Positions 3,119 through 27,634 of a stretch of DNA of 32,647 bases are shown piece after piece. Below the pieces are notes generated by a model. It saw nothing but the letters and a program-made list of their open reading frames with translations, was not told the origin of the DNA and searched no databases. The stretch's first letter is position 1, and each line of letters begins with the position of its first letter. The stretch covers positions 1 through 32,647 of the forward strand of contig NZ_WEZF01000036.1 of the NCBI RefSeq assembly GCF_009177065.1. The letters are read 5' to 3'. The stretch is from Tautonia marina. Its GTDB lineage: Bacteria; Planctomycetota; Planctomycetia; Isosphaerales; Isosphaeraceae. A program made the position numbers and the translations under genes.

Positions 3119-4060
3119 TCAATACGAGGTCCGATCCTCCGAGCGGGGGTCGTCAACCGCCTCGCCGCTGTTCAGCTTGCCCCGCAGCGCATCGGGACGG
3201 AAGGGGCCGCTGGCGTCGTAGTAGGGCTCGTGGAGGTCCACGACGTTGACCATCACCCCCGGCTCGTCGGTCGGCAGCCTCGCCCCGACCAGCCCGTCGG
3301 GCGTGATGAACCGGCTCGGCCAACTCCTCGGGGCCGACGAGTTGTTGATCGAGACGAACATGTTGTTCACGCCGGCGTACGCCCGGGCCGTCACCGGCAT
3401 GATCTCCGGGTGGATGCTCCCCGGCTTCTGCCGGGCGTTGTAGAACGAGTGCAGCATCAGCCGCACGCCGAGCTTGCTGTACTCCCGGTACAGTTCCGGG
3501 AAGCGGATGTCGTAGCAGATCAAGAGCCCGCACCGGACCCCGTCGACCTCGAAGGTGACGAAGTGGTCGCCCGGCGAGTAGTGCTCCAGGTCGCCGGCGG
3601 TGCAGAACCGCTTGTCGTAGCGGTCGACGATCCGGCCCTCGGGGTTGATGACGTAGAGGCTGTTGTGCGGCCGGTGGTCGCCGCCGAGCCGGTGGGTGCT
3701 GCCCAGGACGACCCAGACGCCCAGATCTCGGGCCGTCGCCAGGATCGCCTCGGTCTCCGAGTGCAGGGCGTCCCAGTCCAGGCCATCGATCGACGGCAGG
3801 TCGACCCCGGCGTAGCCGGACAGGGCGCACTCTGGGAAGTGGATCAGGTTGGCCCCCTCGTCGCTCGCCTGGCGCATCTGGGATCGGATCCACTCGCCGT
3901 TGGACCGGATGTCGTCCGAGACGGGGAACTGGCAGGTGGCGAGCCGGAGTACCCCGTCCGACTCGTCGGCGTCCTCCGCCCCGGCGGCGGGGACGCAGGA
4001 CGCCAGGGTGGCGAGCACGGCGATCAGGGTCGTCGTCCGGGCGATTGGCGGTCGTTGCAT
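3119..4060 (-). CDS. Carbon-nitrogen hydrolase (nitrilase superfamily), probable lipoprotein
   Basis: A 313-residue nitrilase-fold amidohydrolase. The catalytic Glu-Lys-Cys triad is visible as E77 in FPECALSGY, K150 in DRYDKRFC and C182 in LICYDIRFPE. What is unusual is the N-terminus: a basic start, a hydrophobic stretch and LASC ending at C22, which reads as a lipobox. Nitrilases are mostly cytosolic, so export to the periplasm or membrane is inferred from that signal. Closest general resemblance is to aliphatic amidase or N-carbamoyl-type enzymes, but the substrate cannot be fixed from sequence. It is transcribed convergently with DUF2809 and divergently from the gene at 4368. Confidence 0.85.
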   Translation of the reverse strand: MQRPPIARTTTLIAVLATLASCVPAAGAEDADESDGVLRLATCQFPVSDDIRSNGEWIRSQMRQASDEGANLIHFPECALSGYAGVDLPSIDGLDWDALHSETEAILATARDLGVWVVLGSTHRLGGDHRPHNSLYVINPEGRIVDRYDKRFCTAGDLEHYSPGDHFVTFEVDGVRCGLLICYDIRFPELYREYSKLGVRLMLHSFYNARQKPGSIHPEIMPVTARAYAGVNNMFVSINNSSAPRSWPSRFITPDGLVGARLPTDEPGVMVNVVDLHEPYYDASGPFRPDALRGKLNSGEAVDDPRSEDRTSY

Positions 4061-7296: not shown

Positions 7297-7911
7297 TCAC
7301 TTCCTCGCCACTCCCCGATACATCGATCCGAGCAGTCGGGGCGTCCCCTCCAGGAGGAACCGTTCGACCTCCACCTCCCGGAACGGCTGCCCCCGGACGA
7401 CCGCCTCCACGTCCAGGTCAAGCCGGCAGCCGTCCGCAAGCACCCGCTGGATCGGGGTCAGCCGATGCTGCCAGCGTCGGACACACGGGTCGTCGTTCAG
7501 CCCGTGCTCCAGGAACAGGAAGCGACCGCCGGGCTTCAGCACCCGGTAGACCTCGGACAGCGCCCGCCGAACATCCGGGATGCTGCACAGCGTCCAGGTC
7601 GACACCACGCAGTCGAAGCGATCGTCTTCGAACGGCAGGCTTTCCGCCACGGCGAGACGATGGTCGACCTCCACCGTGCTGCGGGCGATCCTCTTCCGAC
7701 CGATGCGACCCATCCCCTCGCCGGGGTCGACGGCGGAAAGCCGTCGGACGTGCTCGGGATAGTGCTCCAAATTCAGCCCCGTGCCGAAGCCGATCTCCAG
7801 GACCTCGCCAACCACGTCGACGAGGAGTTCGGAGCGGAGCCGGGCCATCTCGGGACGCCGCATCGCCCGATCGCAGAGGCGGGGGAAGATGTGCCGGGAG
7901 TAGATACCCAT
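7297..7911 (-). CDS. Class I SAM-dependent methyltransferase
   Basis: A 204-residue methyltransferase. Motif I is VLEIGFGTGLNLEHY, motif II VDPGEGM, motif III region FDCVVSTWTLCSIPD and the post-motif LKPGGRFLFLEHG. The LEHG plus a C-terminal RW.HRL.P..R...DGC..D stretch is the pattern of the small METTL7/UbiE-like methyltransferases found in many bacteria, some of which act on thiols or lipids; the substrate here is unknown. The ATG at 7911 has only a weak AAGAG upstream. Convergent with DUF1499. Confidence 0.85.
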   Translation of the reverse strand: MGIYSRHIFPRLCDRAMRRPEMARLRSELLVDVVGEVLEIGFGTGLNLEHYPEHVRRLSAVDPGEGMGRIGRKRIARSTVEVDHRLAVAESLPFEDDRFDCVVSTWTLCSIPDVRRALSEVYRVLKPGGRFLFLEHGLNDDPCVRRWQHRLTPIQRVLADGCRLDLDVEAVVRGQPFREVEVERFLLEGTPRLLGSMYRGVARK

Positions 7912-9663: not shown

Positions 9664-9904
9664 GTGGAGGGTCTCCGATCGGTTCGACGCCGGGGAGGCA
9701 TGGCGGTGCCGTGACCCCGGAGTTGCGGGGACATCGGGCGACCCGTCTCCTCCGGCGTGCGAGCGGGCGAGTGGGATCGTGCCGTCGGCCTTCGCCCCTG
9801 GATGGCGGGAGGCCGACCGGGGACGATTCTCGCCCCGCCTGTCGTCGGGGTCAAAGGGTCGGTATCCTTGGAGATGGAGAAGCTCTGAGAACGGAGGACC
9901 GACG

Positions 9905-10648
9905 ATGACTCCCCCTGATGACCTGCCGGACGACCTCCGTTCCTCGATCCTCGACCGCTTCGGCAAGGTCGCCACGGACCCCGATCGGGAAGAGCGGTTC
10001 CCGGTCGGACCCGAGAGCGCCAAGGCCCTTGGCTACGACGCTGCCGAGGTTGATGCTCTGCCGCCCTCGTTGACCGAGTCGTTCTGCGGCGTGGGCAACC
10101 CGTTCTCCCTGGGCGAGCCCGAGCTCCGTCAGACCGTCCTGGACCTGGGATGCGGGGCGGGCTTCGACACGCTGCTGGCGGCACGCCGGGTCGGGGCGTC
10201 CGGCAGGGCGATCGGCGTGGACATGACGCCCGGGATGGTCGCCAAGGCTCGGAGGAACGCCGAGGCCCTCGGCACGGCGAATGCCGAGTTCCTGCTGGCC
10301 GGGATCGAACGACTGCCGCTGCCCGATAAGTCGGTCGACCTGGTCATCTCCAATGGCGTGTTCAATCTCTGCCCCGAGAAGCTTGCGGTCCTGGCCGAGG
10401 TCGTCCGGGTCCTGAAGCCCGGCGGTCGGCTCCAGATGGCCGACATCCTGCTGGAGCCGCACGTCACGCCAGAGCAGGCGGCGAGCAAGGGCTCCTGGTC
10501 CGACTGAATCGCCGGGGCGATCTGGGAGCGGTCGCTCCTGGGGATGCTGGCGGACGCCGGGTTCGTGGAGGCCGTGGTCCACGGCTGGACCGGCTACCGG
10601 ACCTCGTCGTGTACGCAGGGGGCCTTGATCTTGGCAAGGAGGGCATGA
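9905..10648 (+). CDS. ArsM-like SAM methyltransferase, probable selenocysteine protein (in-frame TGA at 10505)
   Basis: Reading through the TGA at 10505-10507 gives a 247-residue protein. Residues 1-200 carry a full methyltransferase core: VLDLGCGAGFDTLLAARRVG (motif I), IGVDMTPGMVAKAR and RVLKPGGRLQMADI, as in arsenite methyltransferases. After the TGA (residue 201) the frame continues with IAGAIWERSLLGMLADAGF, then HGWTGYRTSSCTQGALILARRA and a TGA at 10646. This is the ArsM C-terminus, where the family has a catalytic Cys followed by x-A-G-A and a second Cys near the end. Thus C61 (FCGVGNP), U201 and C236 would match the three conserved cysteines of ArsM. A hairpin with a GGUC loop lies 22 bases behind the TGA. 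GGAGG at 9893-9897 decides the ATG at 9905. Alternative: a Cys-to-stop mutation or error. Confidence 0.75.
10521..10542 (+). promoter_or_regulatory. Candidate bacterial SECIS element behind the in-frame TGA
   Basis: A hairpin inside the coding sequence: GGAGC (10525-10529) pairs with GCTCC (10534-10538) around a GGTC loop (10530-10533), and the stem extends outward through G24-T39, T23-G40, C22-G41 and possibly T21-G42. The loop starts 22 bases after the TGA, inside the 16-37 base window known for bacterial SECIS elements, has G at its first positions, and contains the G-U pair of bases that SelB contacts in the E. coli fdhF element (loop AGGUCU). Function is inferred. Confidence 0.68.
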
Positions 10649-10724: not shown

Positions 10725-11714
10725 TCACCCGCCGTGGCCGATCTGCCCCAGGAAGTCCCGGTAGGCCGCATCCGGGTCGGGCTCGCCGTCGAAGGCCAGG
10801 ATGCCGAACCTCAGCCGCAAGGTCTCGCCCGCCTCGACGATCACCCGGCTCGGCTCGCCCCCGGTGAAGGCGTTGCGCCCGAACGGGTTGGCCACGAGCA
10901 GGCCGTAGTCCCGGGCGTGGTACCACGGGCGGCGGAAGTTGCCGGGGTCGGGCATCAGCAGCAGGCCGACCCGCTTGCCGTCAATCTCCCCGGCGTAGGA
11001 GCACCAGTCGGCCTGCGCACCCCAGACCTGGGCCTCGTTGACTCTCCCCTCGCTGTCGGTGATCCGCCCGCCGTTGACCACCGCCAATTGAGTAGCGAGC
11101 CGGACCCCCAGGCCCATCTCCTCCTGGTCGCCGAAGGCGAGGGCGCCGCCCATGGGGCGGAACTCCGAGTCCCAGACCAGCAGCGTGCCGGCGGGCCGGA
11201 CCAGGATCTCCAGCCGGCAGACCTCCTCGGCGATGACCTCGCCGTCCTTGAGGTAGCGATTCCGGACGGCGAAGCGGCCCCGGCCCGGCCCGCCCTGCGG
11301 TTCCTCGACGAGCCCGGCGTGCCGGATGGGCTCTCTGTTCCGCCAGGAGTCTGCCCCATTAAGGTCGCCGAAGGCCAGCCAGAGCCCGGGATGGAACGTC
11401 GGGTGGTCGTCGATATCCACGCCCTCGACCGGCGGGTTGGTGCGGGTGACCTGCAACCCGCCGGGAGTGCGGAGGTGCTCCAGGAACGGGCGAGGGATCT
11501 GGCCTTGATCGAAGAGATAGGTGGCGAAGGGCTCCCCGCCGATGGTGATCCGGAGGCCGTTGGGAAGCCCCTCGAAGGCGACGGCGGGCGCCTCGGTGTC
11601 GGATTCGGCCTGAGCGATCTCCTCAGGCTCCGGGTCGTCGTCGAACCATGCCAATCCCGGCATGACGAGCAGGGCAAGCGTCTGCAACAGCATCAAGCGC
11701 CAGCGGACGGTCAT
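10725..11714 (-). CDS. DUF6807 (PmoA-type) exported protein
   Basis: A 329-residue protein with a signal peptide (about residues 1-22, LMLLQTLALLVMPGLA). The body is the beta-rich DUF6807 fold common in planctomycetes and verrucomicrobia: FATYLFDQGQIPRPFLEHLRTPGG near the start, HPTFHPGLWLAFGDLNGADSWRN, then an EFRPM strand, GLGVRLA, and NPFGRNAFTGGEPSRVIVEAGETLRLRFG at the end. Function is not established; members are usually near sugar oxidoreductases and DUF1080 genes, as here. Only 22 bases separate it from the stop of the sialidase-like gene upstream, so the two form an operon. It is convergent with the selenoprotein-like gene. Confidence 0.88.
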   Translation of the reverse strand: MTVRWRLMLLQTLALLVMPGLAWFDDDPEPEEIAQAESDTEAPAVAFEGLPNGLRITIGGEPFATYLFDQGQIPRPFLEHLRTPGGLQVTRTNPPVEGVDIDDHPTFHPGLWLAFGDLNGADSWRNREPIRHAGLVEEPQGGPGRGRFAVRNRYLKDGEVIAEEVCRLEILVRPAGTLLVWDSEFRPMGGALAFGDQEEMGLGVRLATQLAVVNGGRITDSEGRVNEAQVWGAQADWCSYAGEIDGKRVGLLLMPDPGNFRRPWYHARDYGLLVANPFGRNAFTGGEPSRVIVEAGETLRLRFGILAFDGEPDPDAAYRDFLGQIGHGG

Positions 11715-22748: not shown

Positions 22749-24266
22749 ATGATGCGATTGTCGCAATTCTTGATGCCGAAAGGCTTTGTCGTCGGCCTGC
22801 TGCTGGGCGCCGTCGTCGGCGGCATGGCCATCGTTCTCGTCCCCTGGAGTCCCGTCCTTCCCTCCAACAGTCGGGCAGCGACGGACACCGGAGGGGATCA
22901 TGAGGGGCATGAGGAGGACGAGCACGTCCCCGGCCTCGTCGAGCTCCCCAAGGAGCAATGGCGGGCCGCCGGGCTCCGGATCGAGCCGGCCGTCCGGGGA
23001 GACCTGACCCTGGTCCGCACGGTCACGGGCAAGGTCACCACCAACGAGGACCGCCTGGCTCATGTCTACTCGCTGGTCGAGGGGGTCGTCCACGAGGTCT
23101 ACGTTCGCTTCGGCGATCGCGTCGAGCAGGGAGCCGAGCTGGCTCTGATCGACAGCCGGGAGATCGGCCAGGCGAAGCTCGACCTGGTCGCGGCCCGCCA
23201 GGGGATCCGGATTGCCGAGGTCAACGAGGAGTGGGCCGTAACCATTCACCAGAATGTCTCCGACCTGATCAACGCCCTCGAAGCCGAGCCGCCCGTGCAG
23301 GAGGTCGTCGGCCGTTTCGAGGGCCGCCCGATGGGCGAGTACCGCGAGCAGTTGATCTCCTCCTATGCCAAGATGGTCCAGGCCCGCACCGAGTTCGATC
23401 GCGATCTGGAACTCAACCGCCTCAACGTGTTAAGCGATAAGCAGTACCTCCAGACCAAGGCGGCGTATGAATCGGCCCTGTCAACCTTCAAGGCCCTGAT
23501 GGAGCAGATCGCCTTTACCTCCGAACAGCACCTGCTCCAGGCCCGCCAGGCATTGGAGCAGGCGCAGGTCGCCGAGGGCTCGGCCCGATCGGCCCTGATG
23601 ATCCTCGGCTACGACGAGGGGCAAGTGGCGTCGATGGACCCGCTTGGCGAGGGGGAGGATGTGGCCCACTACACCATCGACGCCCCGTTCGCCGGGACAA
23701 TCACCCAGAAGGACGTGGTCATCGATGAGCGCGTTGGGCCGCAGATCAAGCTGTTCGACCTGGCCGACCTGTCGACCGTCTGGGTGCAGGCCGACATCTA
23801 CGAGAAGGATCTCTCCCTGCTGGCCGGCCTCCTGGGCCGAACGACCCGTTTTCGAACCGAGGCCTACCCCGATCGGATCTTCGAGGCCGAGGTCTTCTAC
23901 GCAGGCGACCTTGTCGACCCTGAAACACGCACCGTTCGGCTGGTGGCCGAGGCCGACAACTCTGATCAGCTGCTCAAGCCAGGGCAGTTCGCCACGGTCG
24001 AGCTGCCCGCCGGGATCGCGGAGGATGTGCTGCATGTGCCGTCGATGGCCTTGCAAGAGGACCGCGACGAAACGTACGTCTTCGTCCACCTCGGCGACGA
24101 GGACTTTGAGCGGCGAGACGTGGTGGTCGGCCGCCGGATTCCGGGCCAGGCGGTCGAGGTCGTCGAGGGGCTGAGCCCCGGCGAGCCGGTCGTCGTCTCC
24201 GGAGCGTTCGCCCTGAAATCGGCAATGCTCGGCGAAGCGCTGGGTGAAGCCGGACACGCGCACTAA
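22749..24266 (+). CDS. czcB: CzcB-like RND efflux adaptor (membrane fusion protein)
   Basis: A 505-residue HlyD/CzcB-type periplasmic adaptor. An N-terminal membrane segment (about 12-32) is followed by a metal-binding-looking stretch GDHEGHEEDEH (residues 49-59). The lipoyl-like half domains are at VYSLVEGVVHEVYVRFGDRVEQGAEL and HYTIDAPFAGTITQKDVVIDERVG; the long coiled-coil hairpin lies between (about 140-275). A beta-barrel domain (LSTVWVQADIYEKDLSLL) and a membrane-proximal domain (VPSMALQEDRDETYVFV) complete the order. It links the inner-membrane pump to an outer-membrane channel. Only 17 bases separate it from the pump gene. Confidence 0.9.
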   Translation: MMRLSQFLMPKGFVVGLLLGAVVGGMAIVLVPWSPVLPSNSRAATDTGGDHEGHEEDEHVPGLVELPKEQWRAAGLRIEPAVRGDLTLVRTVTGKVTTNEDRLAHVYSLVEGVVHEVYVRFGDRVEQGAELALIDSREIGQAKLDLVAARQGIRIAEVNEEWAVTIHQNVSDLINALEAEPPVQEVVGRFEGRPMGEYREQLISSYAKMVQARTEFDRDLELNRLNVLSDKQYLQTKAAYESALSTFKALMEQIAFTSEQHLLQARQALEQAQVAEGSARSALMILGYDEGQVASMDPLGEGEDVAHYTIDAPFAGTITQKDVVIDERVGPQIKLFDLADLSTVWVQADIYEKDLSLLAGLLGRTTRFRTEAYPDRIFEAEVFYAGDLVDPETRTVRLVAEADNSDQLLKPGQFATVELPAGIAEDVLHVPSMALQEDRDETYVFVHLGDEDFERRDVVVGRRIPGQAVEVVEGLSPGEPVVVSGAFALKSAMLGEALGEAGHAH

Positions 24267-24283
24267 TCCAGGAGGACGAACGC

Positions 24284-27200
24284 ATGATCGATCGCATCAT
24301 CGACGCATCGCTCAACAATCGGTTCGTTGTCCTCCTGCTGGTCCTGCTGCTCGTCGTCGCTGGCATCGCGGCCATGCGCCGCCTGCCGATCGACGCGGTC
24401 CCCGACGTGACCAACGTGCAGGTGCAGGTGCTGACCAACGCCCCCTCGCTGGGGCCGGTCGAGGTTGAGCAGTACATCACCTTCCCGGTTGAGGCGGCCA
24501 TGAGCGGCCTGCCCCGGGTCGAGGAGGTCCGCTCGGTGACCCGTTTCGGCCTTTCAGCCGTGACGATCGTCTTCGAGGAGGGGACCGATCTCTACTGGGC
24601 CCGCAACCTCGTCGATGCCCGGCTCGGCGAGGCGACCAAGAGCATTCCTGCCGGCTACGGCGAGCCGGAAATGGGCCCGCTTTCGAGCGGCCTGGGGGAG
24701 ATCTTCCAGTTCCAGGTCAAGGCCGCCCCGGGATACGACTACAGCCTCATGGAGCTGCGCTCGATCCTCGACTGGCAGGTCGCCTTCCAGCTCCGCAGCG
24801 TTTCGGGAGTTGTTGAAGTGAATTCCTTCGGCGGTGAGCTGAAAACCTACGAGGTCCAGCTCGACCCGTCGAAGCTGCTCAACTACAAGATCCCGCTCAA
24901 CACGGTCTTCGAGGCGCTCCAGCGGAACAACCGGAACCAGGGCGGCGGCTACATCATTCACGACCGCGAGCAACGTCTCGTCCGCGGCGAGGGCTTGATC
25001 ACGAGTCTTGCCGACGTGGAGAACATCGTCCTGGCCAGCCGGAAGGACGGAACGCCGATCCACGTTCGAGACATCGGCGAGGTCCGCTTCGCCCCTCTCT
25101 TGCGACAGGGGGCCGTCACCCGAGACGGCGAGGGGGAGGCGGTCATCGGCATCGTCATGATGCTCATCGGCGAGAACGGCCGAGTCGTCGTCGACCGCGT
25201 CAAGGACCGGATCGAGGCGATCGAAGCCTCACTGCCGCCGGGGGTCGTCATCGAACCGTTCTACGACCGCACCGACCTGATTCTGCGGACCATCAACACG
25301 GTGGTCGAGAACGTCAGCAGTGGCGCCTTGTTCGTGGTCGTGATGCTCTTGCTGCTGGTAGGCAACCTGCGGGCGGGGCTGATCGTGGCGGCGGCGATCC
25401 CGCTGTCGGCCTTGTGCATGATCATCACGATGGAGGCGCTCGGTGTCTCGGCCAACCTGATGAGCCTTGGCGCGATCGACTTCGGCATCATCGTTGATGG
25501 AGCCGTGGTGGTGGTCGAGAACTGCATTCGACGGGCCGGCGACTACGCGAAGGCCCACCCTGAGAAGAGGTCGGTTCCGCTTCGGGTCTTCCGAGAGGCC
25601 AGCAAGCAGGTCGGCCGGCCGGTGCTGTTCGCCGGCCTGGTGGTCATCGTTGTCTTCCTACCGGTCCTGAGCCTCCAGGGGATCGAGGGGAAGATGTTCC
25701 GGCCGATGGCGATCAGCTTCATGTCGGCGCTGGCCGGGGCGCTGGTCCTCTCGGTGACGGTGATGCCGGTGCTGGCGTCGCTGCTGCTCGCCCGCCGAAT
25801 GACGCAGAAGGATACGCTTCTGATCCGGGGTGCCCGGGCCTCCTACGCTCCGTTGCTGCGCCAGGCGTTGGATCGGCCCTGGGTGCCGGTGGCGATTGCC
25901 GCGCCGCTGCTCGTCGCCGGGGGCCTGATCGCCTCCGGCCTGGGCGCTGAGTTCATCCCCAGGCTCGACGAGGGGGCCGTCGCCCTGCAGGCATGGCGGC
26001 TGCCGAGCGTCGCGCTGGAGGAGTCGATCGAAGGGACGACGAACATCGAACGTGTGCTGATGCAGTTCCCCGAGGTCATCACCGTCGTCTCCAAGACCGG
26101 CCGACCGGAAATCGCCACCGACCCGATGGGCGTGGAGATCAGCGACATCTTCGTCATGCTCCACCCCCGGGCCGAGGTCTCGCCGCTGGAATGGCCGCTG
26201 GTCCTGCTGGGGCTCCGGAGCCGACCCGAGGATCGTTGGACGACGATCCGAAGTCCCGACGACCTTCTGGCCGTCATTCGAGCTGTCCATCGCGAGATGA
26301 CCGGACGGCAGGACATCCCCGAGGCGAAGGTCCGCCAGTTGCGGGAGCTGGCAGACGACATCTTCCGTGACTTCGACGAGCAGAATCTCCGGTTCGACAA
26401 GGAGCGGCTGGTCTTCGTCATGGACCAACTGCTGACACGCTACGTCCCGTCGAACACATTCAGTGATTCGCAACCGATCGAGCTGCGGGTGCAGGAGCTC
26501 ATCTCCGGCGTGCGCTCCGACGTGGGGATCAGCCTCTACGGGCCGGACCTCGACGTCCTCAAGCGAAAGGGAGACGAGATCGTTGCTGCCGTCTCTCGGA
26601 TCTCCGGCGGGGCCGACGTGCGGGCGCAGCAGATCGCCGGCTTGCCAAACATCCGCGTGGTCGTTGATCGCGACGCCCTGGCCCGCTACGACATCAACGC
26701 CGGAGACGTGATGGACGCCGTCGCGGCGATCGGTGGCAATGTCGTCGGCCAGGTACTCGAAGGCCAGCCGAGGTTCCCGCTCCAGGCCCGCTACGCCCCG
26801 CAGTACCGCACCGACCTGGAGACGCTCCGGCAGATCAAGATTGCCGACCCGCTCGGTCGGCAGATCCCGCTGGAGCAGTTGGCCGAGCTGTCGGTCGAGG
26901 AAGGCCCGGCTCTGGTGACCCGCGAGTCGATCCAGCGCCGCCTTCAGATCGAGGCCAACGTCCGAGGCCGCGACCTGGCCGGATTCGTCGCCGACGCGCA
27001 GCGGGCCGTCCGCGACGAGGTCGATCTGCCCCCCGGCTACGTCATCACCTGGGGCGGCCAGTTCGAGAACCTCCAGGAGGCAACGGCCCGGCTCTCGGTC
27101 GCCGTGCCGGTCGCGCTCCTGCTGATCTTCGCGCTGCTCTACGCGACCTTCGGATCGCTGCGGCTGACGCTCTTGATCTCCCTCAACGTGCCGATCGCCG

Positions 27201-27634
27201 CCACGGGGGGCATCATCGCGCTCTGGGCTCGCGGAATGCCCTTCTCGATCTCCGCGGGCGTCGGCTTCATCGCCCTGTTTGGCATTGCGGTCATGAACGG
27301 CGTGGTGCTGGTCGAGTCCATCCGAGACCTGCGGCACAACGGCACTGGCCTGCGGGAGGCAGTCTTCTACGGAGCGATGGACCGGCTGCGGCCGGTGCTG
27401 ATGACCGCGACGACCGACGCGCTCGGGTTCCTCCCCATGGCCCTCTCCACCAGTGCGGGTGCCGAGGTGCAGCGGCCGCTGGCCACGGTGGTCATCGGCG
27501 GGGTGGTCACCTCCAGTCTGCTGACCCTGCTCGTCATCCCGGCCATCTACGGCTGGTTCGAGCCGCCCCCGAGCGCGATCGAGGAAGATCCGGGGGACGC
27601 CCCGACCGCTTCAGGAGAAGATGACGGTCCATGA
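24284..27634 (+). CDS. czcA: CzcA/CusA-type heavy-metal RND efflux pump
   Basis: A 1116-residue inner-membrane proton antiporter, with the usual 12 transmembrane helices in two halves and two large periplasmic loops. TM4 carries the heavy-metal class signature SLGAIDFGIIVDGAVVVVEN (about 393-412) with two aspartates and a glutamate in the proton path. The loop segment KTGRPEIATDPMGVEISDIF resembles the Co/Zn/Cd/Ni (CzcA) type more than the Cu/Ag (CusA) type. The protein is about 50-70 residues longer than CzcA: an extra segment at about 640-720, predicted helical and charged, lies just before SQPIELRVQELISGVRSDV. No outer-membrane CzcC gene is next to it. The operon ends at the 27666 hairpin. 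Confidence 0.93.
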   Translation: MIDRIIDASLNNRFVVLLLVLLLVVAGIAAMRRLPIDAVPDVTNVQVQVLTNAPSLGPVEVEQYITFPVEAAMSGLPRVEEVRSVTRFGLSAVTIVFEEGTDLYWARNLVDARLGEATKSIPAGYGEPEMGPLSSGLGEIFQFQVKAAPGYDYSLMELRSILDWQVAFQLRSVSGVVEVNSFGGELKTYEVQLDPSKLLNYKIPLNTVFEALQRNNRNQGGGYIIHDREQRLVRGEGLITSLADVENIVLASRKDGTPIHVRDIGEVRFAPLLRQGAVTRDGEGEAVIGIVMMLIGENGRVVVDRVKDRIEAIEASLPPGVVIEPFYDRTDLILRTINTVVENVSSGALFVVVMLLLLVGNLRAGLIVAAAIPLSALCMIITMEALGVSANLMSLGAIDFGIIVDGAVVVVENCIRRAGDYAKAHPEKRSVPLRVFREASKQVGRPVLFAGLVVIVVFLPVLSLQGIEGKMFRPMAISFMSALAGALVLSVTVMPVLASLLLARRMTQKDTLLIRGARASYAPLLRQALDRPWVPVAIAAPLLVAGGLIASGLGAEFIPRLDEGAVALQAWRLPSVALEESIEGTTNIERVLMQFPEVITVVSKTGRPEIATDPMGVEISDIFVMLHPRAEVSPLEWPLVLLGLRSRPEDRWTTIRSPDDLLAVIRAVHREMTGRQDIPEAKVRQLRELADDIFRDFDEQNLRFDKERLVFVMDQLLTRYVPSNTFSDSQPIELRVQELISGVRSDVGISLYGPDLDVLKRKGDEIVAAVSRISGGADVRAQQIAGLPNIRVVVDRDALARYDINAGDVMDAVAAIGGNVVGQVLEGQPRFPLQARYAPQYRTDLETLRQIKIADPLGRQIPLEQLAELSVEEGPALVTRESIQRRLQIEANVRGRDLAGFVADAQRAVRDEVDLPPGYVITWGGQFENLQEATARLSVAVPVALLLIFALLYATFGSLRLTLLISLNVPIAATGGIIALWARGMPFSISAGVGFIALFGIAVMNGVVLVESIRDLRHNGTGLREAVFYGAMDRLRPVLMTATTDALGFLPMALSTSAGAEVQRPLATVVIGGVVTSSLLTLLVIPAIYGWFEPPPSAIEEDPGDAPTASGEDDGP

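Follow-up and report, generated by a model that had tools for sequence, protein, structure and literature searches.

The question raised by this locus is whether an in-frame TGA in a methyltransferase gene of Tautonia marina is read as selenocysteine (Sec) and, if so, whether the product can still be regarded as an arsenite methyltransferase (ArsM). The gene is located on the plus strand of the window (the whole stretch of 32,647 nucleotides analysed) at positions 9905-10648, the final TGA included, and codes for an ArsM-like S-adenosylmethionine (SAM) methyltransferase of 247 amino acids with Sec201. A Shine-Dalgarno-like GGAGG, read directly from the plus strand (9893-9897), lies 7 nt before the ATG at 9905. 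Codon 201 of this frame is TGA (10505-10507, plus strand) and is followed by 46 open codons up to the stop TGA at 10646-10648, so that a gene caller treating the first TGA as a stop would truncate the product at codon 200. In agreement with the original prediction that translation runs on past this codon, the family profile match covers the 46 codons 3' of it. Moreover, in 9 of 10 pairings with relatives (all but that with L023) the part after the TGA has a lower pN/pS than the part before it, and thus behaves as coding sequence. The possibility that the final TGA (10646) also encodes Sec was considered and rejected, as the frame beyond it soon stops and several relatives end with TAG or TAA there. 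The scan of the window against Rfam at the gathering score gave no match, and no tRNA was found in it by ARAGORN.

The prediction of a hidden selenoprotein depended on the presence of the Sec machinery in the genome (7.07 Mb, 80 contigs, 97.76% complete). All of its components were found, namely SelA (522 bits), SelB (367 bits), SelD (350 bits), which carries one in-frame TGA of its own, and tRNA-Sec (66.5 bits, anticodon TCA). Relatives were gathered by likeness to the T. marina protein or to the NF041537 family; L-numbers denote their loci, G-numbers the genomes, and a row is one aligned relative. The loci are the best-scoring ones (best 30 of the own phylum, best 25 of the phylum around L039, a Syntrophaceae record) rather than all matches. 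Over all sets, site 201 is TGA in 61 rows, the window included, and Cys in 54, the latter being the residue which homologues had been expected to show. The TGA rows comprise 20 from the first two sets, 18 from the own phylum and 23 from the phylum around L039. The first two sets hold 64 readable rows including the window (20 TGA, 42 TGC or TGT, TGG in L020 and CGA in L068), with L067, frameshifted before site 201, standing outside them. The best 30 loci from 294 genomes of the own phylum gave 18 TGA and 10 Cys rows once the window itself and one duplicate had been left out, and the best 25 loci from 395 genomes of the phylum around L039 gave 23 TGA and 2 Cys rows. Matches ending short of the site (L052-L060, 9 of the 44 in one set) were removed before counting; L157-L159 repeat L039, L041 and L033, and L113 is the window itself. 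The TGA is therefore kept by relatives in several phyla, others having Cys at this site.

Three of the rows that have neither codon deserve a description. The CGA belongs to a degenerate copy in G002, a genome of the same genus (L101:9876-10466), which lies near homologues of the window genes 10725-11714 and 3119-4060. The frameshifted L067 is a copy in G019. The TGG of L020 (1569-1571) is accompanied by a retained hairpin, and the genome that contains it has SelA and tRNA-Sec over the cut-offs.

SelA scores over its cut-off in all nine genomes with an unbroken TGA copy, the own genome included, versus 36 of 59 genomes overall. Among the 11 named TGA genomes SelA is over the cut-off in eight, G061 has tRNA-Sec, and G063 (3.4 Mb) and G065 (1.4 Mb) have neither SelA nor tRNA-Sec over the cut-off.

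Downstream of the TGA, a SECIS-like hairpin was located at 10521-10542 (plus strand), with a 9-bp stem (10521-10529/10534-10542) and a GGUC loop (10530-10533). According to PMC13188914, the limits of such an element are an upper stem of 4-16 bp, a loop of 3-9 nt with G within its first two places, a distance of 16-37 nt after the UGA and an energy of -7.5 or lower. The window hairpin, taken alone, falls within all of them (9 bp, GGUC, 22 nt, -12.0 kcal/mol). A hairpin of -6 kcal/mol or better is present in 61 of 61 TGA rows versus 5 of 54 Cys rows, and at -7.5 the proportions are 56 of 61 and 1 of 54, the TGA rows that fall short being L017, L019, L022, L023 and L107. In 15 aligned rows the eight central stem pairs are kept in 79.2% of cells, a value reached by none of 500 shuffles (mean 71.3, sd 2.0). 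Changes on both sides occur at four stem pairs, a number that is also reached by 32 of the 500 shuffles, while sliding the 3' arm by one column keeps 65% of the pairing and likewise yields four pairs changed on both sides. Folded without constraint, the 56 nt that start with the TGA take, at lowest energy, a pairing other than the GGUC hairpin. Covariation over the 15 rows gives partial support to a putative SECIS element.

The features expected of a bacterial selenoprotein gene are found together here: an in-frame UGA, homology on both sides of it, Cys homologues at the site, and SelA, SelB, SelD and tRNA-Sec in the same genome. Hence, the prediction of a hidden selenoprotein is strongly supported by the machinery, the hairpin, the conserved TGA, the Cys relatives and the selection acting after the TGA, and we infer with near certainty that codon 201 is read as Sec in the cell. 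Decoding of the TGA as Trp or plain readthrough was rejected, since the tRNA-Sec, the hairpin and the Cys relatives point to Sec. That the TGA is a true stop, marking an allele in decay or a TGC misread in sequencing, is hardly credible: decay does occur in kin (CGA in G002, whose match starts only at residue 91, the frameshifted copy in G019 and TGG in L020), but 61 TGA rows each with a hairpin, the lower pN/pS 3' of the TGA in 9 of 10 pairs and the encoded Sec machinery speak against it, and none of the relatives examined hinted at error or decay of the window copy.

As to the nature of the protein, the read-through product matches Pfam Methyltransf_31 with 105.8 bits. Its top NCBIfam matches are three "exception" models for selenoproteins that are methyltransferase fusions, of which two carry arsenite methyltransferase in their names; ArsM comes next. 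The predicted model (pLDDT 89.6, pTM 0.89) is closest to CmArsM (4fr0; Z 26.8, rmsd 2.2 over 204 residues), and the next matches are 5evj (Z 26.3) and 6cx6 (Z 26.1), so that three ArsM entries lead the best methyltransferase of another kind (Z 22.1). Unrelated methyltransferases score about as high as six further ArsM entries (20.7 to 20.9) and AS3MT (20.5). There can be little doubt that the protein is a SAM methyltransferase, and the predicted class I fold, closest to ArsM, bears out its earlier description as ArsM-like.

The metal-binding site is another matter. CmArsM Cys72, Cys174 and Cys224 were mapped onto the protein through solved ArsM fragments, and the numbering agrees with the PDB titles of the mutants C72A (5eg5) and C224A (5jx7). 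The place of Cys224 is taken by Sec201, which supports the proposal that Sec stands at a conserved catalytic cysteine. The places of Cys72 and Cys174, however, hold Val63 (10091-10093, plus strand) and Gly151 (10355-10357, plus strand), neither being Cys. It follows that C61 and C236, proposed originally as the remaining conserved cysteines, do not correspond to the canonical partners, and the Sec-Cys-Cys arsenite site built on them is unsupported, C236 in addition not being conserved.

This altered site is shared by most of the Sec relatives. With the V/G pattern defined as V at 63 (in rare cases T or L) combined with G at 151, the 89 full-length rows fall into 40 V/G rows (35 Sec, 4 Cys, 1 Trp) and 49 rows which retain both cysteines (48 Cys and a single Sec, L031). 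Truncated L066 and L128, broken L067 and L068, and L134, which shares its genome and place with L075 and was considered its duplicate, are outside these counts. Over all sets, once truncated rows and the L039 phylum are counted in, 60 of 61 TGA rows, the window included, show the double loss versus 4 of 54 Cys rows, the other 50 keeping both cysteines. Within the V/G rows a chalcogen is nearly fixed (39/40) at position 201 alone. The rows are related, and the double loss counts as one event: the 62-row tree of the first sets unites the V/G rows in a single clade of 23 (support 100/99), the V/G pattern arising by one change and Sec, Cys and Trp at 201 changing four times. Among the four named genomes with Cys in a V/G copy, SelA was found in one and tRNA-Sec in two. 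The V/G Sec clade was seen in Planctomycetota, Nitrospinota, the phylum around L039 and others. V63 and G151 also occur in the fusions L160-L163, which score over the NF041537 cut-off of 510, in L165 and L166, whose further part was taken for DUF2284, and in L171 and L173, which end with GGTUKPK and were taken for UXPK-star, the last two labels being readings by eye and not profile matches. The catalogued Sec fusions, carrying the same loss, thus seem to be part of the altered clade. As the relatives were picked by likeness to the T. marina protein or NF041537, Sec ArsMs that retain the cysteines are under-sampled.

Among the 40 V/G rows, Cys is present at the position of C61 in 5, of C156 in 17, of C236 in 9 and of C83 (within the DLGCG stretch) in 30. 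The set around L039 has Cys61 in 21 of its 23 TGA rows. In T. marina, the non-canonical Cys61 (FCGVGNP; codon 10085-10087, plus strand) precedes the position of the lost Cys72 by two residues. A tree of 63 V/G rows with 5 others requires at least two gains of Cys61, one before a group of 22 rows and the other before a group of four (the window, L017, L018 and L062; support 97/88). Since a cysteine was gained repeatedly so close to the lost Cys72, a Sec201-Cys61 pair is plausible, and Cys61 may serve as a second ligand beside Sec201. It is possible that this pair is the surviving part of the earlier site in another form, the canonical three-ligand site being excluded.

In this sample Sec is almost always accompanied by the loss of the partner cysteines, a single event on the tree, which suggests that it either replaces three thiols alone or does something else. 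We favour the reading, with a probability of about 0.6, that the protein is an ArsM-fold SAM methyltransferase with Sec at UGA 201, which has lost two arsenic cysteines and handles a soft substrate by means of Sec201. UGA codon 201 would be decoded via the downstream SECIS hairpin and the cell's own SelA, SelB, SelD and tRNA-Sec. The clade presumably exchanged Cys72 for Val and Cys174 for Gly and retained only the Cys224 position, mostly as Sec. The Sec201 selenolate, probably helped by Cys61, would then grip one soft atom next to the methyl group of SAM for transfer of that methyl; the atom might belong to a partly methylated arsenical or to some other metalloid or chalcogen compound offering one or two exchangeable sites. 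For the substrate being soft and held by Sec the odds are about even, and arsenite itself is a less likely substrate. In the available text of PMC3877260, CmArsM binds arsenite by three cysteines, monomethylarsenical (MMA) by two and dimethylarsenical (DMA) by one; C72A loses arsenite methylation and keeps that of MMA, and C174A and C224A lose both.

The T. marina genome also encodes a canonical Cys ArsM (ORF L105, 5468-6367), whose matched stretch scores 280 bits versus the cut-off of 263, so arsenic need not be the substrate of the Sec protein. By eye, this gene is followed by ArsC-like, AhpD-like (CEAC) and peroxiredoxin genes (L105:5468-9193, contig C14) and preceded by a reductase-like gene; it is apparently the ordinary arsenic locus of the genome.

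These observations bear on the possibility that the protein is an ordinary Sec arsenite methyltransferase, in which Sec201 together with C61 and C156 or C236 would bind and methylate As(III). The ArsM fold, the arsenite methyltransferase names of some of the best family models, the presence of C61 and an ACR3 gene near one relative are consistent with it, and Sec forms are listed as arsenite methyltransferases with UxxG in the available part of PMC13188914. Yet V63 and G151 replace the very residues at which the substitutions C72A and C174A abolish arsenite methylation by CmArsM (available text of PMC3877260), the score of 209.7 bits is below the ArsM cut-off of 263, Cys is found in only 17/40 (C156) and 9/40 (C236) V/G rows, and a canonical ArsM is encoded elsewhere in the genome. 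We consider arsenite methylation of this kind unlikely.

The window Sec gene stands alone, with a minus-strand gene on either side, and none of the adjoining genes read is an ars or metal gene; inference of function from an operon was rejected, because the neighbours also differ among the relatives. In the stretches read around the relatives' Sec genes, the broken copy in G019 has ACR3 (440 bits) and a Cys ArsM nearby, L019 a CusB-like gene carrying a heavy-metal domain as well as a gene for a P-type cation ATPase, L153 a heavy-metal ATPase gene, and L103 ArsR-like, CpaM and HgcAB-like genes. The neighbours of L099 are a LysR-like gene, a cupin, a CxxU AhpD-like gene and RND-like genes, and nothing metal- or arsenic-like was recognised within the stretches read around the other relatives. 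Judged from the gene content, the neighbours in some relatives may point to metals or arsenic.

Several further arrangements were observed. The window itself contains genes for a CusB-like adaptor and an AcrB-type RND pump (22749-27634), 12 kb from the Sec gene, homologues of which are found near the Sec gene in L099. A second small methyltransferase is encoded on the minus strand of the window (7297-7911), its homologue (L018:1363-1980) lying directly after the Sec gene in L018. In L097:3195-4796 (G032; the same gene as L063) the Sec methyltransferase is fused in frame into 534 codons, the further part matching NnrU (PF07298, E 2.9e-6). In G292 (L138:7466-11119) the Sec gene is flanked by a hydrogenase small subunit gene (TIGR00391, over the cut-off) and, on the other side, by a large-subunit-like gene whose matches stay under their cut-offs. 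The AhpD/CMD-like gene of L099 (1777-2325, minus strand; PF02627) has an in-frame TGA in its CxxU motif (CHYU) and directly follows the Sec methyltransferase, the pair looking like a separate-gene version of the ArsM/AhpD fusion. In G014 (L103:5869-9825) an ArsR-like gene, a gene for an unnamed probable membrane protein, CpaM (NF043040, 268.5 bits) and an HgcAB-like fusion (NF043039, 356.9 bits) precede the relative of the Sec gene, an order which suggests that Sec methyltransferases may be connected with corrinoid chemistry.

Such neighbours lend some substance to the alternative that Sec performs redox or methyl-relay work with a corrinoid or AhpD-like partner instead of holding a metalloid. 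AhpD-like parts are fused to or adjoin relatives (with CxxU in L099, L160, L161 and L163, and with CxxC in L162), one relative sits behind HgcAB-like and CpaM genes, and most uncharacterised selenoproteins are thought to be redox proteins, according to the available part of PMC13188914. However, there is no such partner beside the window gene, and the SAM-methyltransferase domain and fold are retained; a redox or relay role therefore seems doubtful.

We thus retain the reading in which Sec201 holds a soft substrate for SAM-dependent methylation. If it is extended to the relatives, many of the Sec proteins called arsenite methyltransferases (nearly all in our biased sample), fusions included, may constitute one clade devoid of the three-cysteine site, which would use a single selenolate, joined by a new Cys in two lineages, that of the window among them, on a substrate other than arsenite, in a Sec chemistry not yet described; this wider proposition is as apt to fail as to hold. 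The cysteine losses put the name "arsenite methyltransferase" in doubt for a whole clade of Sec proteins, and for the V/G clade it is probably a poor label.

The caution that such Sec methyltransferases may already appear in selenoproteome surveys was justified. In Table 1 of PMC13188914, Sec arsenite methyltransferase (UxxG) stands under "Experimentally verified", with a citation of Fomenko 2007, and the available portions of PMC9312934, PMC2398784 and PMC5029168 list it as well, the last with 41 selenoproteins in 39 organisms. For the fusion families PMC13188914 cites Haft and Tolstoy 2025. Since UxxG forms are already catalogued, the T. marina selenoprotein is a further case of a known kind. 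The words "arsenite" and "methyltransferase" are absent from the main text of the paper on planctomycete selenoproteins (PMC4807772), and neither occurs in PMC12013277. In a survey of 343 ArsM sequences, a minimum of three of four conserved cysteines was required for a sequence to be kept (available text of PMC5552862), a rule by which the V/G clade would have been passed over. In our partial search of the literature no description of the cysteine losses was found; an earlier report may exist, and the altered site is accordingly put forward as a variant for which we found no description rather than as an unreported one.

Compared with the known systems, the T. marina protein resembles the UxxG selenoprotein of NF008823/PRK11873 in its ArsM fold and in having Sec in a U-I-A-G stretch that fits UxxG. 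It differs in lacking equivalents of Cys72 and Cys174, the comparison with the listed reference protein being by motif, and its 209.7 bits lie below the NF008823 cut-off of 263, while L031, the sole Sec ArsM met that keeps both cysteines, scores 327 bits against the same model. The best family match is the ArsM/AhpD domain selenoprotein NF041537 (249.6 bits, profile positions 13-248 of 345); the score is under the cut-off of 510, and the T. marina frame ends at residue 247 without an AhpD domain. The four matches over this cut-off have Sec at the same site and V and G at the places of Cys72 and Cys174. NF041536 (ArsM/DUF2284, 230.4 bits) and NF047649 (MTase/UXPK-star, 233.7 bits) match over the methyltransferase part, but the T. 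marina protein has one Sec and no second domain and remains under their cut-offs of 575 and 460, respectively. With CmArsM, CrArsM and AS3MT (4fr0, 5evj and 8xt7) it shares the same predicted fold (Z 26.8, 26.3 and 20.5). Where ArsM binds As(III) by three cysteines, however (available text of PMC3877260), the T. marina protein has Sec, Val and Gly.
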